Assembly (NCBI GenBank): GCA_028715345.1
Contig: JAQUSB010000013.1
Location: forward strand, 1-45,173
Source of the DNA: Candidatus Omnitrophota bacterium
GTDB taxonomy: Bacteria > Omnitrophota > Gorgyraeia > 2-01-FULL-45-10
Reading direction: 5' to 3'
DNA: 45,173 bases
In this document: positions 35,911 to 45,140 of the stretch, piece after piece
How positions within the stretch are numbered: position 1 is the stretch's first letter
How the letters are laid out: each line of letters begins with the position of its first letter
Position numbers and translations under genes: made by a program
Notes under the pieces: model-generated
What the model was told of the DNA's origin: nothing
What the model saw: only the letters and a program-made list of their open reading frames with translations
The model's database searches: none

Positions 35911-36387
35911 TTACATAAAGTATTTTTCTATCGTGGTGCCGAAACTGCCGTTATCGCCGTTTGCGGCGCTTGCCGAAGCCCCGGTCAAATAAGTAAAATA
36001 TTCGAATTGTTCCTGCGCGCTATTACTTTTTATTTTAGCGAATGTGCCTACGGCCAATAAAAGGATGAGAATGCTGGCGATCGCCAATGCCGGCTTCGGA
36101 ACATATAAAAGGCTCCGCAATTTTCCCAGGATGCCTGCGGCAAAGTTATTCCCGGACCTTTTTTCATTCAGGACCGCTTCGCGTATCCTGCGCCAGACAT
36201 ATTCCGGAGGATTCGCCCGGTTCGTTTTGGAAAATAATTCATTGTTCGCTCTTGCGGCGGTCAGATAAAAAGTTTTACACCCCGGGCACCGGGCCATATG
36301 CTCCTCGAGCCGGGCCTTTCGGCCGGCGTCTATCTCATTATCCAGATAATCCGTGAGTATGGCTTCTCTCGCCTTTTTACAGTTCAT
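35911..36387 (-). CDS. Anti-sigma factor with zf-HC2 zinc domain
   Basis: A 158-residue single-pass protein. The N-terminal zinc anti-sigma domain shows the pattern CxxxREAILTDYLDNEID, then H-x3-C-x2-C (EEHMARCPGC, ~29-37). One membrane helix (~100-117, ALAIASILILLLAVGTFA) follows, then a short periplasmic tail (~40 residues) rich in Ala, Ser and Gly. This family holds its ECF partner inactive at the membrane until proteolysis or a conformational signal. The gene overlaps the sigma gene by 11 bp, which fixes the pair, and has a strong GAGGTGATGGG site inside the sigma gene's end. The periplasmic tail is too short for a large sensor domain, so sensing may need the Spy-like protein. Confidence 0.9.
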   Translation of the reverse strand: MNCKKAREAILTDYLDNEIDAGRKARLEEHMARCPGCKTFYLTAARANNELFSKTNRANPPEYVWRRIREAVLNEKRSGNNFAAGILGKLRSLLYVPKPALAIASILILLLAVGTFAKIKSNSAQEQFEYFTYLTGASASAANGDNGSFGTTIEKYFM

Positions 36388-36931
36388 TTCCCATCACCTC
36401 TTTTCTTGCGCTCAATAATTTTTCCCTGGCCCTGGCAAGCCTGGAACGGACCGTATTTATACTTATTTTTAAAGTATCGGCGATCTGCCGGTAACTCAAT
36501 CCCTCCAGGTTCCGTAAAATTACGCACACCCTCTGGTCGGGATTCAGCATTTTTAAGGCAATGTCCGCGATCTCCTTATGTCCCATATCGGATACTTTAG
36601 GCGCGCTTAAAACATCCCAGGGGTTAAGGTGCTTACCGTATTCTTCTCTTCTGTCCCTCTCCCTGCTGACCTTTTTCGAATGGTTAATGGCGCAGTTGAC
36701 CGTGATCCTGTACACCCACGTTTTAAATGATGACTGCATTCGGAAATATTTCAGATTATGATAGACCTTCAAAAAAACCTCCTGCGTGATCTCTTCGGCA
36801 TCCTGGGCATTATGGACAGTGCGGTACGCCACGTTATAAACGAATCCGGATGTTGCCCTGTAGACAGCCTCGAAAGATTTTATATCTCCCTCAGCCGATC
36901 TTTTTATGATCTCATTCGATACATCCTGCAT
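36377..36931 (-). CDS. ECF-type RNA polymerase sigma factor
   Basis: A 184-residue sigma-70 family group 4 factor. Region 2 spans ~20-90 (FEAVYRATSGFVYNVAYRTV, DAEEITQEVFLKVY, FKTWVYRITVNCAINHSKK). Region 4 spans ~120-175 (LNPDQRVCVILRNLEGLSYRQIADTLKISINTVRSRLARAREKL, helix-turn-helix for the -35). No region 3, as expected. It is followed by its anti-sigma gene (11-bp overlap). The promoter upstream matches the general ECF consensus and recurs before another Spy-like gene, indicating autoregulation. The operon it heads encodes periplasmic chaperone and exporter genes, pointing to envelope stress as its signal. Confidence 0.95.
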   Translation of the reverse strand: MQDVSNEIIKRSAEGDIKSFEAVYRATSGFVYNVAYRTVHNAQDAEEITQEVFLKVYHNLKYFRMQSSFKTWVYRITVNCAINHSKKVSRERDRREEYGKHLNPWDVLSAPKVSDMGHKEIADIALKMLNPDQRVCVILRNLEGLSYRQIADTLKISINTVRSRLARAREKLLSARKEVMGNEL

Positions 36932-39955: not shown

Positions 39956-40504
39956 TTACTCGTCGCTTTTTTCGCGCTCTGCTTTTTCTTCAAACCTTGC
40001 GCCTTTGCCTCCTTTATTCCGGAATTTCATTCCTTTTTTATGCATAGCTTTTAATTTATTGAACTGGTCGGGGCTGAGTATTTTTTTGAGGTTTACGTAT
40101 GCCGCGACATTATCTTTGGCTTTCTGTGCCTTTAGAGCGTATTTCTGGTCTATAAGCTTATTCACGGCATTAACGTCGATCTCGTCCTTTCCCATAGCCT
40201 CTTTGATGTCCAGGGCCGCGGCTGCGATGTCGGCGTCTTCCTTTATGACATTTTTCCCGACGCTGTATTTCAGGGCTTTTACCTTTTCTATCTGTTCATT
40301 GGTCAGGCCCAATTCCGCGGCATTGTCCAGGATCATGTGGGCTTTATGGAAAAACATGTTATCCGTTCCCATCCCGCAGGACATTTTCCCTTTCCCGTCC
40401 GCAAAACCGCCTTTACGCATATTGCACTCATTGGCAAACGCGCCTGATGACGCTATCGCCAACGCACAGCACACAGCTATACAAATAACTGCGATACGTT
40501 TCAT
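39956..40504 (-). CDS. Spy/CpxP-like (LTXXQ) periplasmic protein
   Basis: A 182-residue exported protein: signal peptide ~1-24 (SGAFANE), a short Gly/Lys/Met/Cys region (C27, C43) that includes MSCGMGTDNMFFHKAHM and could bind a soft metal such as copper, then a helical domain with the paired LTxxQ-type motifs LGLTNEQIEKV and ILSPDQFNKL. The C-terminus is strongly charged (KKGMKFRNKGGKG). It is a paralogue in kind of the 155-residue protein in the sigma operon, but divergent in sequence. It has AGGAGG before the start and sits alone between an ECF-type promoter and a strong terminator, so it is most likely a direct target of the sigma factor 3.6 kb away. Confidence 0.87.
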   Translation of the reverse strand: MKRIAVICIAVCCALAIASSGAFANECNMRKGGFADGKGKMSCGMGTDNMFFHKAHMILDNAAELGLTNEQIEKVKALKYSVGKNVIKEDADIAAAALDIKEAMGKDEIDVNAVNKLIDQKYALKAQKAKDNVAAYVNLKKILSPDQFNKLKAMHKKGMKFRNKGGKGARFEEKAEREKSDE

Positions 40505-40618: not shown

Positions 40619-40647
40619 TTGACAACGGCAAAGCGGTGCTTTACCAT
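40619..40647 (+). promoter_or_regulatory. Promoter of the DegP-Hsp20 gene
   Basis: A perfect TTGACA (40619-40624), 17 bp, and TACCAT (40642-40647, four of six matches). It lies only ~30 bp from the divergent ECF promoter, so binding at one may affect the other. Confidence 0.5.
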
Positions 40648-40670
40648 ATCCTTTAAGGAGAGATAAGGCT

Positions 40671-41933
40671 ATGAACGTGAAAAAGCTCATGGCATATTTA
40701 CTGGCAGCTCTGCTTTTTTTATCGGTGAGCGCACGCGCCGACAACGTCCGTGAAACGCCGGTAGTCAAAATAGCAAGGGATAATGCCGGCGCCGTCGTCA
40801 ATATCAGCACGGAGAAAATAATCCTTCTTCAGCAAAATCCCGCCTGGGGCGCGTTCGGCAACGACATCGACTCATTCCACAAACAATATTATAGTTCCGC
40901 TCCGGCGCAGACGCTCAAATTGAAGAACGTCGGGTCCGGCGTCATATTGGATAAAGAAGGCATAATAGTGACCAACGCGCATGTCGTCAATATGACCACG
41001 AATATTTTCGTCATATTGACCGACGGTACACAGGTAAGGGGCGAAGTGCAATATGAAAACCCTGAAAGCGACCTGGCAATAATTAAAATAGACCCGCCCA
41101 AGCCTTTACAAGAAATAAAACTCGGCCAGACAAAGGACCTCATGGTCGGAGAGACCGCGATAGCCATAGGAAATCCTCTCGGGCTCGAAAATTCGTTAAG
41201 CGTAGGCGTCATAAGCGGCAAGAACAGGACTCTTTACTCGCCGGACGGACGGCCTGTGATGACGGGCCTCATCCAGACGGACACCCCCATAAACCCAGGT
41301 AATTCCGGCGGCGCATTACTGAATCTGAACGGCGAGCTCATAGCCATAAATACCGCCATGGTCCAGAGTTCGCAGGGCATAGGCTTCGCTATCCCCGTCG
41401 AGAAGGTCAAAGAGGTGCTTGAAGGCTATAGGAAGAACAAAAACCTCGGGATAAAATACCAAGGCAAGTCGGCGCCCGTCCAGGCGATCTACCAGCCTGC
41501 GCCGCAGCCGCAGCAGGGCGGGGCCCGTAACATTGAAGCCGAGATGAGGGCGATGCGGGAAAAGATGGACCAAATGATGCGAAATGCGATGAGCCGCCAT
41601 TTCGCCGGGCAGGATATGGGCGCTCCGAACAATGCTTTAGTCTATTCCAACGCGAAACTCACCACGGAAGAGACGCAACATGCCTATCTGCTGACTCTCG
41701 ACGTAAAGGGGCTCGATAAGAATAAAATAAATATAGCGGTAAAGCCCGATTCGATAACTATATCCGGTCAAAGGTCGGAACAGGTCACACAAGACCGCGC
41801 GGGAGCCTCTTTCAACACATCCTCTATGAGTTATTTTTCTCAGACCATCCCCATGCCGCGGGATGCGGATGCATCAGCGGTAAAGACCGAGGTAAAAGGC
41901 GATGCCCTGCTTATAACATTGCCGAAGAAATAG
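40671..41933 (+). CDS. Periplasmic trypsin-like (DegP/HtrA) protease fused to an Hsp20/alpha-crystallin domain
   Basis: A 420-residue exported protein. The signal peptide (~1-23) is followed by an HtrA-type serine protease domain (~30-255) with intact triad H104 (TNAHVV), D134 (ESDLAIIKI) and S212 (GNSGGALL), plus IGNPLGL and the loop GIGFAIPVEKV that normally leads into PDZ1. No PDZ domain follows. A Pro/Gln/Met-rich linker (~262-335, with an amphipathic AEMRAMREKMDQMMRNAM) leads to a C-terminal alpha-crystallin domain (~337-420: YLLTLDVKGLDKNKINIAV, ITISGQRSEQ, FSQTIPMPRDAD, LLITLPKK). Usual HtrA proteins are about 450-500 residues with one or two PDZ domains. The fusion suggests substrate capture by the small heat-shock domain. 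It is divergent from a Spy-like gene. Confidence 0.93.
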   Translation: MNVKKLMAYLLAALLFLSVSARADNVRETPVVKIARDNAGAVVNISTEKIILLQQNPAWGAFGNDIDSFHKQYYSSAPAQTLKLKNVGSGVILDKEGIIVTNAHVVNMTTNIFVILTDGTQVRGEVQYENPESDLAIIKIDPPKPLQEIKLGQTKDLMVGETAIAIGNPLGLENSLSVGVISGKNRTLYSPDGRPVMTGLIQTDTPINPGNSGGALLNLNGELIAINTAMVQSSQGIGFAIPVEKVKEVLEGYRKNKNLGIKYQGKSAPVQAIYQPAPQPQQGGARNIEAEMRAMREKMDQMMRNAMSRHFAGQDMGAPNNALVYSNAKLTTEETQHAYLLTLDVKGLDKNKINIAVKPDSITISGQRSEQVTQDRAGASFNTSSMSYFSQTIPMPRDADASAVKTEVKGDALLITLPKK

Positions 41934-41936
41934 TTT

Positions 41937-42716
41937 TCAGGCATTTTTCACCGCGGATACTTTTATGCTGGCTATCGCATCTTCGGCGTCTTTAAGACTC
42001 TCGAACAAGGCATCTGCGGGATAACCTGTTTGATCTATCACCTTGATTTCTTCGAACCCCGCCGTTTTTATGAACTCCATATATTCGTCTTTATCGATCG
42101 CTCCGGCTATACATCCTACATATGCCTCGACCGACTTTTTTATTTTATCCGGCAGGTCTTTTACCAGCACCAGGTCGGAAACCATTAGCCGCCCTCCGGG
42201 CTTAAGCGCCCTGAAGGCTTCTTTAAATACTTTTTCTTTGTCCGGGGACAGATTTATTACACAGTTCGATATGACCACATCTACGGAATTATCTTTTACC
42301 GGCAGGTCCTCGATCTCTCCGAGCCTGAATTCAACGTTATCGTAGTTGCCATTTTTAGCGTTCGCTCTGGCTTTCTCGACCATTTCGGGCGTCATATCTA
42401 TGCCTATGACCTTGCCATTTTCTCCCACCCTCCTGGCTGCGAGAAAACAATCGAATCCCGCGCCCGCACCCAGGTCGAGAACGGTTTCGCCTTTTTTCAG
42501 CGATGCCAGCGCGACCGGATTGCCGCATCCGAGCCCGAGGTTCGCTCCGTCGGGTACGGTTTTGAGCTCGTCCTCTTTATAACCTACGTTCTTACTGATC
42601 GCCGCGGCTGAATTTGCGCCCGAACAGCATGAAGAGCCGGCACAACAGGAGCCGTCCGTCACGGCGATCTTCGCGTAATTTTCCCGGACCATCTTTTTTA
42701 CGTCCTTATTTTTCAT
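41937..42716 (-). CDS. arsM: Arsenite S-adenosylmethionine methyltransferase
   Basis: A 259-residue cytoplasmic enzyme that methylates arsenite stepwise with SAM. The SAM site is [19 protein letters not shown] (~80-98), with [12 protein letters not shown]. The conserved arsenic-binding cysteines are C64 (LGLGCGNP), C152 (VISNCVINL) and C202 (YVGCIAGA), matching the three core cysteines of characterised ArsM. An N-terminal CC-x4-CC cluster (C24, C25, C30, C31) is common in bacterial forms. It is last in the arsenic operon, 16 bp after the ArsG-like permease. Its stop lies only 3 bp from the stop of the convergent DegP-Hsp20 gene, with no evident terminator between. Confidence 0.95.
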
Positions 42717-42732
42717 TTCTTGCCCTTTCTTA

Positions 42733-43404
42733 TTAAAACCGCAGAATATGATTAAAAACGTAATACGCGCCGACCGCGATGAAAATACCTCCCGTGATCT
42801 TCCTGGCGTATATTTCGAGTTTTATTACCTTATTGAACCAATGGCTTAAAGAAGTGATCCCGGCCGCGATGCCGAGAGCAAATATCAATACGGGAAGACC
42901 CGTCCCTGCGCCATAGATGAACGGCAGGCTTAGGCCTATACTGCTATCCACCGCGAGCGGTATAAGGCTCCCGAAAAATATCGCGGCGGAGATGGGGCAA
43001 AAAGAGAGCGCGAATACAAAGCCCAGCAGAAAAGCGCCCGGTATCCCCGAACCGGCGAGTTTGTTCTGATGTTTTTCCGAAATGGCCGGATGCGGTATAT
43101 TGAATTTGACCAGGTCCAGCAGGAATATGCCGGCCAGGATAAGGATCGGGCCTAAAGCTTTGTTCATATATTTCTGCAGGAAATTCGCGGCAGACGGCAC
43201 GCTCAATACTGATTTGACGATGAGAAAACCGAGCATAGCGTATGCCAGCATCCTCCCGGCGGTATATGCCGCTCCCGATAAGAATACCATCCCGGGATGG
43301 GCTATCCTTTTGGACAAAAACGAGACGGCGGCGACATTGGTCGCGAGAGGGCATGGGCTTATCGAAGTGAGGATACCAAGCCACAGGGCGGTTAGGATTA
43401 TCAT
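42733..43404 (-). CDS. arsG: ArsG-like permease (CcdA/DsbD-type, aromatic arsenical efflux family)
   Basis: A 223-residue protein with six predicted helices. Two membrane cysteines in Pro motifs, [10 protein letters not shown] (C18) and [10 protein letters not shown] (C136), give the CcdA/DsbD internal symmetry. The SPCPLATN variant, beside ArsF- and ArsM-like genes, marks the family annotated as ArsG, a permease linked to aromatic arsenical resistance. Electron transfer to periplasmic thioredoxin-fold partners, as in DsbD, is an equally sensible reading given the ArsF-like and thioredoxin-like neighbours. It begins 3 bp after the ArsF-like gene. Confidence 0.82.
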
Positions 43405-43407
43405 CGG

Positions 43408-43833
43408 CTAAAGTTCCTTGAGATATTTTTCCACTTCGTTTTTAATATACCGGCGAAAGGCTTCTTTATCCCTCAGGTGTTCCCATACTTTGGTAAGGTT
43501 GTCAAATTTAACCTCCTTACCGTTTTTCACCAGGGACAATACCACGGATTTTGTGTAAAGCTTATAATCGTCCGTGAAATGTTCGTTGCCCTTCGTTTCT
43601 ACATTGATCGTTTTAAATTTTACCGAGCCTGAGGCCAATTCTTTCTTGAAATCTTTTTCGATAGTTTCTTTGGTATATTGTTCGATGTTATGGCAATTTG
43701 CGCATCGGAAATTCCCGTGAAAATAATATACCGCTACGAAATTCTCGGGAGTCGTCCCGTCGCCTGCCGCGAAACTGCACGTGATCGGGATGATAAGGAA
43801 CGCCGCAAATAAGAGAGTTATTATCCGCGTCAT
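43408..43833 (-). CDS. arsF: ArsF-like exported thioredoxin-fold protein
   Basis: A 141-residue protein. The start is the ATG at 43833: it overlaps the thioredoxin gene's TGA (ATGA) and has GGAGG upstream, whereas a frame start at 43851 would hide both. The signal peptide (~1-23) is followed by VYYFHGNFRCANCHNIEQYT with redox pair C44/C47 and a thioredoxin-like remainder. This is the signature of the family named for the nitroreductase subunit ArsF of the arsEFG system. A periplasmic location and redox role fit; reduction of nitro-aromatic arsenicals is known only by family name, so that substrate is uncertain. Confidence 0.82.
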   Translation of the reverse strand: MTRIITLLFAAFLIIPITCSFAAGDGTTPENFVAVYYFHGNFRCANCHNIEQYTKETIEKDFKKELASGSVKFKTINVETKGNEHFTDDYKLYTKSVVLSLVKNGKEVKFDNLTKVWEHLRDKEAFRRYIKNEVEKYLKEL

Positions 43834-44069
43834 TTTTCCTCCGCGATCCATTTTTTTATCTCCTCGGCTTTGGGGATACGCCCGGTGCTTTTGACCTTGC
43901 CGTTAATACACAGCCCGGGCGTCTGCATGATACCGGCGTCCACTATTCTATTTATGTCTTTCACCTTCTCGACATCCGCGGCTATGTTGAGTTCCGCTAC
44001 GGCGCTTTTTACGATCTTTTCCAGTTCCCCGCACCGATGACATCCCGGCCCGAATATCTCTATTTTCAT
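43830..44069 (-). CDS. Small thioredoxin/glutaredoxin-like protein (possible ArsE equivalent)
   Basis: A 79-residue thioredoxin-fold protein with active-site pair CHRC (C10, C13) near the N-terminus and cis-Pro motif QTPGLCING. It matches the minimal redox-active disulfide family (MTH895/TM0996-like). No signal peptide, so cytoplasmic. It is coupled to the ArsF-like gene by an ATGA overlap and follows the permease by 15 bp. In this position it corresponds to the small first protein of arsEFG operons, but I name it only tentatively. It may supply electrons to the ArsG-like membrane protein. Confidence 0.85.
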   Translation of the reverse strand: MKIEIFGPGCHRCGELEKIVKSAVAELNIAADVEKVKDINRIVDAGIMQTPGLCINGKVKSTGRIPKAEEIKKWIAEEK

Positions 44070-44084
44070 ATTCTTATCTCCCAG

Positions 44085-45140
44085 TTAAAATTTCGGCACA
44101 AGGAACCAGAATACAAGTCCCGCGATGGTGCCGAACACCCACATAAGCGCCGCGTACACGGCAGGCACTTTCGGTTTCACTATTTTACAGACGCCGAGTA
44201 TCGACGGCAGGCTGAGCGCGGGCCCTGTCAAAAGAAACGCCATCGCGGCCCCCGTGCCCATGCCGGATTCCAAAAGCCCCCGCACCAGAGGCACCTCGAC
44301 GAGCGTCGGGGTGTACATGAATACGCCCATAGCCGATGCCAGCATTATAGGCAGGACGCCGTTACCGAGGTATTTGATTATAAGAGACGGGGGTAAAAAA
44401 GCTTTTACCAGGCCTGCGCATATAACGCCCAAAAATATCATCGGCAGGACCAGTTTTACGAATTCCCATGAATAAAGAGCCGTGTTTACGAGCCTCTTGC
44501 CGAGCCCCTGGCTCTCCTGCACGACCCCCTCTGCTTCCGCTTCTATATGTACAGGTTCGGGCGGCGGCAGTCTTTTCTTTAGAATTTTCTCGGTGGCGTA
44601 CCCGGTCACGATCCCCGCGGCTATGGCTACGCCAATCCTTGCCGCGGCGAATTTCCAGCCCAATAGCCCCAATGTAAGCATAACCGCCGCCGGATTGAAC
44701 GCCGGCGCAGCCAGAAGGAATGTCACCGCGGGGCCAAGTCCCGCGCCTCTTTTATACAGGCCGCCGAATAAAGGTATTATGCTGCAGGAACACATCGATA
44801 ATAGCGGCCCGCCGCACCCTGCTACGGCATAAGGGGCAAATCCTCTGCCGGAGCCCATGAGCTTGACCACTTTATCCCTGGGCGCAAATTCCTGCAGCGC
44901 TCCTGCGGCTATGAATGCCAGAAGGAGGCAAAGCCAGGAATGTTTTACGTAATCGACGATCGTAAAAACGATATACATGGGAATGGGTACGTTATTCTCT
45001 TCGAGAAGTTTCGCTGTAACGACCTTGTTCTCTGCCATAGTTACTTTGACGCCCGACCACGCGCCTGTCCATTCGTAGATGATTATGACGGCAAAGATAA
45101 AAACCAATATACCTATAGCGAACACGGCCTTTTTATCCAT
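44085..45140 (-). CDS. arsP: ArsP-like permease (DUF318 family)
   Basis: A 351-residue membrane protein with about eight helices in two halves, each with the family's Pro/Gly motif: SMCSCSIIPLFGGLYKRGA with APAFNPAAVMLT in the first, and FMYTPTLVEVPLVRGLLESG with GPALSLPSILGV in the second. C109, C117 and C119 are the metal(loid)-handling candidates. Family members include ArsP, which exports trivalent organoarsenicals, and zinc/copper exporters; neighbouring ArsM, which makes methylarsenite, favours ArsP. It is the first gene of the operon in the window. The AAGGAAA ribosome site is at 45145-45151, and a promoter or ArsR gene would lie beyond the right edge. Confidence 0.85.
   Translation of the reverse strand: MDKKAVFAIGILVFIFAVIIIYEWTGAWSGVKVTMAENKVVTAKLLEENNVPIPMYIVFTIVDYVKHSWLCLLLAFIAAGALQEFAPRDKVVKLMGSGRGFAPYAVAGCGGPLLSMCSCSIIPLFGGLYKRGAGLGPAVTFLLAAPAFNPAAVMLTLGLLGWKFAAARIGVAIAAGIVTGYATEKILKKRLPPPEPVHIEAEAEGVVQESQGLGKRLVNTALYSWEFVKLVLPMIFLGVICAGLVKAFLPPSLIIKYLGNGVLPIMLASAMGVFMYTPTLVEVPLVRGLLESGMGTGAAMAFLLTGPALSLPSILGVCKIVKPKVPAVYAALMWVFGTIAGLVFWFLVPKF

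Follow-up and report, generated by a model that had tools for sequence, protein, structure and literature searches.

An HtrA-type protease and a small heat-shock chaperone in a single, probably exported polypeptide of some poorly known bacteria

Can an HtrA-type protease serve the cell envelope with a small heat-shock protein (sHsp) in the position of its PDZ domains? The question is raised by a gene at positions 40671 to 41933 (forward strand) of the 45,173-nucleotide stretch of Candidatus Omnitrophota DNA analyzed here (the window). PDZ domains of HtrA proteins bind substrate, regulate activity and hold DegP cages together (PMC11642142), and HtrAs carry zero to three of them (PMC3640471). 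The gene is an open reading frame with an ATG start that encodes 420 amino acids followed by a stop codon, and a Shine-Dalgarno sequence, AAGGAG, lies 5' of it at 40655 to 40660. A consensus scan places sigma-70-like promoter hexamers (TTGACA-17-TACCAT) further 5' on the same strand, at 40619 to 40647; this predicted pair matches the consensus at 10 of 12 positions, which is no evidence of function.

The first half of the protein is an HtrA-type serine protease domain (about residues 26-255; 40746 to 41435, forward strand). Pfam detects Trypsin_2 at residues 88-226 (E = 8.7e-31) and Trypsin at residues 84-249 (E = 5.9e-17), and the best solved relative is the HtrA of T. maritima (1l1j; residues 28-260, E = 3.8e-45). 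As claimed in the original prediction, the catalytic triad is intact: His104 (in TNAHVV; 40980 to 40982), Asp134 (in SDLAI; 41070 to 41072) and Ser212 (in PGNSGG; 41304 to 41306) are in place, and all three are invariant in the 11 fusions aligned. The fusion thus has the trypsin-like domain and the His-Asp-Ser triad of the HtrA family (S1C) and lacks the C-terminal PDZ, of which the family at large permits zero copies. Against TIGR02037, the model of the Do/DegP subfamily, it scores 213.8 bits, below the cut-off of 416.2, because only the first half matches (residues 32-258); it is therefore not classed as DegP. No second Trypsin_2 protein was found in this genome (93.6% complete), so the general HtrA job there probably falls to the fusion. 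An active protease cannot be assumed, since Deg5 of plants, which also lacks PDZ, has no detected protease activity (PMC3640471).

PDZ families give no match to the full-length fusion protein up to E = 0.1 and none to its last 225 residues up to E = 10, in line with what had been predicted, and Pfam finds no PDZ in any of the 11 fusions scanned. A hidden or degenerate PDZ in the C-terminal part was rejected, because those 225 residues give no PDZ match up to E = 10 and the Foldseek matches listed for this region are all alpha-crystallins.

The C-terminal region is instead an alpha-crystallin domain (ACD, or HSP20; residues 333-420, 41667 to 41930, forward strand), identified by Pfam with E = 4.3e-11 and 43.3 bits against a cut-off of 20.8. 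Solved sHsp structures match this part of the fusion (6ewn, E = 3.6e-9). A model of residues 322-420 built from the single sequence has a mean pLDDT of 79.5, and all 50 Foldseek matches listed for it are alpha-crystallin or sHsp structures (best E = 1.1e-5, probability 1.00); a full-length model made without an alignment (mean pLDDT 43, poor except near the C-terminus) was left out of the analysis. The full alpha-crystallin domain proposed from the sequence is therefore real, and the proposed check for a PDZ or unrelated fold comes out as alpha-crystallin, but the Pfam match begins at about residue 333 and not at about 337. HSP20 also matches 10 of the 11 fusions scanned. The protease and HSP20 matches both clear their curated cut-offs by a wide margin.

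Between the two domains lies a linker (residues 256-332; 41436 to 41666, forward strand), which had been described as Met/Gln-rich. That description proved too simple: alignment places within it, at about residues 285-310 (EMRAMREKMDQMMRNAM), the remnant of an sHsp N-terminal arm. The linker aligns with the motif WDPFxEMxRMxxEMDxMF of most other fusions, and a similar arm occurs in free sHsps, both exported and cytoplasmic. The arm expected of sHsps (PF00011) is thus seen in most fusions; in the window protein it is degenerate, with WDPF lost and EMRAMREKMDQMMRNAM kept, and one relative (L054) has almost no arm. The loop at the position of the swapped dimer strand spans 22-26 residues in intact fusions, and in bacterial-type sHsps it is this loop that bears the swapped strand. 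The ACD, the N-terminal arm and the bacterial-type loop length are therefore common to the fusion and the sHsps, whereas the fusion differs in its predicted export, its attachment to a protease and its C-terminus. The intact fusions compared stop 0-4 residues past the last ACD strand, the window protein straight after it; the C-terminal IxI extension of sHsps is thus missing, while IxV-type ends persist in the exported sHsps of the window's family. The sHsp motif AxxxNGVL is also altered, to KGDxL, in the fusions. With the IxI extension absent and the arm degenerate in the window protein and almost gone in L054, holdase activity may be weak.

The fusion protein begins with a typical signal peptide by sequence inspection (residues 1-23, MNVKKLMAYLLAALLFLSVSARA; 40671 to 40739, forward strand), consisting of KK, a hydrophobic core and A-R-A as the A-x-A cleavage site. 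This agrees with the original prediction, and export to the envelope is probable. On this sequence evidence, some poorly known bacteria carry an HtrA-type protease and an sHsp chaperone in a single polypeptide, predicted to be exported, in which the sHsp takes the PDZ position.

An exported sHsp is less of an exception than had been supposed. The premise that sHsps are normally cytoplasmic does not hold in this phylum, where forms with a signal peptide or a membrane anchor are common (the anchored types include L040 and L074); export of sHsps seems general in this lineage, judged from their sequences. Most genomes of the window's family encode sHsps of about 180 amino acids with apparent signal peptides and IxV-type C-termini. 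One is present in the window's own genome (G000 contig 1, L114:1988-2524; L044/L114), and sHsps of this type also occur at L029-L034, L037, L038 and L041-L046.

In five genomes of family f44 (L132-L136), none with a detected fusion, the gene for an exported, tail-less sHsp immediately precedes a co-oriented gene for a single-PDZ HtrA. These sHsps have about 200-225 amino acids, some with a coiled-coil-like N-terminal segment, and in L132 the pair is preceded by an HspR-like gene and by two hsp20 genes of the cytoplasmic kind. The operon places the same two predicted activities side by side in the same compartment, and its sHsps are tail-less like that of the fusion; however, it encodes two proteins, and its HtrAs retain one PDZ and belong to a lineage other than that of the fusions. 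Exported sHsp and HtrA have thus been paired at least twice, once in a single protein and once as separate genes. Some fusion genes have heat-shock genes nearby as well: in L049 and L050 the fusion gene adjoins a cytoplasmic hsp20, and in L110 it lies a few kilobases from an HspR-like gene, two hsp20 genes, an anchored hsp20, groES and groEL. Sequence inspection also places the fusion of L107 and L110, which belong to two different families, in line with Bat-like genes, which encode von Willebrand-type and TPR proteins; the Bat-like set of L110 further includes MoxR and DUF58.

Dimer formation in sHsps is governed by the ACD, whereas their flexible termini serve oligomer assembly and the binding of substrate (PMC4516975). 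Considering these roles together with those of PDZ domains in HtrA (PMC11642142), the sHsp part likely engages clients for the protease. We regard it as reasonably probable that it engages unfolding envelope proteins and presents them to the active sites. The polypeptide would be exported by Sec and its signal peptide removed, and the protease domains would trimerize as in other HtrAs. The N-terminal arm and ACD would then bind hydrophobic segments of unfolding envelope proteins, keeping these clients soluble and close to the active sites, and the clients would be handed from chaperone to protease and cut there.

A less likely role for the ACD is mainly that of an assembly module, with three-fold protease trimers joined by two-fold ACD dimers into closed particles that gate the active sites. 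The ACD would then replace the PDZ1-PDZ2 contacts of DegP cages and would not be the main client-binding surface. Such a role would fit the part of the ACD in sHsp dimer formation (PMC4516975), the PDZ1-PDZ2' contacts that hold DegP cages (PMC11642142), the retention of 22-26 residues in the swapped-strand loop of intact fusions and the absence of the IxI tail used for sHsp oligomers, which leaves dimer contacts as the main option. However, most fusions keep the N-terminal arm, a client-binding element, and the separate exported sHsp that stands beside a PDZ-bearing HtrA in the f44 relatives fits client delivery better.

A role for the ACD as a lid, autoregulatory or heat-sensing, is improbable; such a lid would block the active sites at rest, release them when clients compete for it and replace PDZ allostery. 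In its favor, PDZ is an inhibitory module in DegS (PMC11642142), the fusions keep the full catalytic set, and some fusion genes are linked to heat-shock genes, but PDZ-less relatives manage without any C-terminal module. The existence of such relatives also means that some members can dispense with the ACD. Client engagement, assembly and a lid function may hold together in part. A wider proposal, tentative but conceivable, is that the fusions are a new class of envelope protease-chaperone, in which trimeric HtrA and dimeric ACD build closed, PDZ-independent cages or networks that capture clients in the manner of sHsps and feed them to enclosed active sites, alongside a broader, unrecognized periplasmic sHsp system that partners HtrA both as a fusion and as an operon.

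The search covered two overlapping sets of 384 genomes, one from the class and one from the phylum, as well as 32 genomes from a single family. The same architecture, looked for elsewhere as the original prediction had proposed, is present at full length in 13 other genomes, giving 14 intact fusions with that of the window, and these span six families and two classes of one phylum. It is extremely improbable that assembly or binning joined an htrA to an hsp20 gene here, an outcome on which the original prediction would have fallen. The draft is fragmented (65 contigs) and the ACD of one relative (L055) is broken, but the gene stops 3.2 kb inside its contig. Each of the 13 other intact copies comes from a separate genome and shows the same junction with the ACD collinear, which refutes an artefact for the family. 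In L055 (L055:145-1218) the ACD is broken after the first strands and no other frame restores it; either this gene has decayed or the assembly of its genome contains an error. The nearest fusion to that of the window is L141 of family f44, with 57% identity over the whole length. Distribution is patchy, with the fusion in 1 of 26 genomes of the window's own family, 8 of 32 in f44 and 1 of 5 in f61. None of 247 Acidobacteriota genomes searched has it, and no plasmid record covers 80% of the fusion query.

A first tree, of 48 protease domains, unites its 11 fusions in a single branch (100/98). They lie inside a 21-row group (100/100) together with PDZ-less HtrAs, opposite 27 other HtrAs that are nearly all of ordinary length. 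The PDZ-less proteins are mostly about 270-290 amino acids long and stop right after the protease; Pfam finds PDZ in none of the seven scanned and in both ordinary HtrAs scanned. When four later fusions and the five operon HtrAs are added, the 15 fusions again form one branch (91/97), in which the window fusion groups with an f44 sequence (100/99), and the PDZ-less rows are less well resolved. The simplest reading of the sequences is that PDZ loss came first and was followed by a single fusion event; because the root of the protease tree is only a midpoint, this order is one that we infer. The original prediction had the PDZ domains replaced by Hsp20. PDZ is indeed absent and an ACD present, but a direct, one-step swap is less likely under the midpoint root, since the fusion clade is surrounded by HtrAs that have neither PDZ nor ACD. 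An HtrA lineage would thus have lost its PDZ domains, one PDZ-less member would have been joined once to a periplasmic sHsp, and the fusion gene would then have spread, or been kept patchily, across the phylum. So patchy a distribution, and a window fusion that groups with an f44 sequence, suggest that the gene was transferred horizontally or lost many times.

The chaperone half also points to an envelope source. The fusion ACDs group with those of signal-peptide-bearing or membrane-anchored sHsps and separate from the cytoplasmic ones (97/88; 96/89 in an earlier tree), and the ACD trees thus disfavor a cytoplasmic sHsp as the origin of the ACD. One row of the later ACD tree (L145, branch length 7.3) is probably a wrongly cut stretch and is to be ignored. 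The genome of L075, which also has a fusion, encodes an exported sHsp (L075:451-1071) whose ACD lies inside the fusion ACD clade; this protein either is of the kind that donated the ACD or is a former fusion from which the protease has gone.

With DegP, DegQ and HtrA (MEROPS S1C; TIGR02037) the fusion shares an exported trypsin-fold protease with a His-Asp-Ser triad, and two-PDZ HtrAs of the phylum are 40-46% identical to it over the protease domain; unlike them, it has an sHsp module and no PDZ. PDZ-less HtrAs (plant Deg5; L004-L008 and L096-L099) share the protease domain without PDZ, and the bacterial ones are the nearest protease relatives of the fusions. They have no ACD, ending with the protease, and most have GSSGG at the active site where the fusions have GNSGG. 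The periplasmic, ATP-independent chaperones Spy, Skp and HdeA belong to families other than the sHsps (PMC4516975). They resemble the fusion in the ATP-free envelope holdase role proposed for it, and are not known to occur fused to a protease.

No published description of the fusion was found in the open-access literature, where most preprints and papers behind subscriptions are absent, and uncommented entries for the architecture may exist in automatic databases. The two domains belong to known families; the way they are combined, the conservation of that combination and the exported sHsp system seem not to have been described before. The fusion and its neighboring-gene version suggest a previously undescribed way to catch and cut damaged proteins outside the cytoplasm, in which sHsps are apparently exported and directly attached to a protease. 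Substrate finding, switching on and DegP cage building are the roles ascribed to PDZ domains in HtrAs, and a natural PDZ-free HtrA with an sHsp tests which of these roles truly need PDZ. With the fusion and the two-gene operon, it becomes testable in one polypeptide whether holdases pass clients on to proteases.

The divergent neighbor of the fusion gene in the window (39956 to 40504, reverse strand) encodes an exported LTXXQ/Metal_resist-like protein of 182 amino acids, of the CpxP/Spy/ZraP type. Its Pfam matches are weak (Metal_resist, E = 1.5e-4; LTXXQ, E = 0.0023), both below the curated cut-offs. A Spy-like gene thus adjoins the window fusion and is possibly its envelope-stress partner; no relative of it was found near other fusions. 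On the other side, a convergent block at 41937 to 45140 (reverse strand), probably an arsenic resistance set, encodes a methyltransferase that resembles the arsenite methyltransferase ArsM, a DsbD-like membrane protein, a thiol protein and an ArsP-type permease. An ECF sigma factor gene and an overlapping zinc-finger anti-sigma-like gene lie at 35911 to 36931 (reverse strand), and genes for a multi-PAS sensor kinase and a response regulator are located between the ECF sigma factor and the LTXXQ-like gene.
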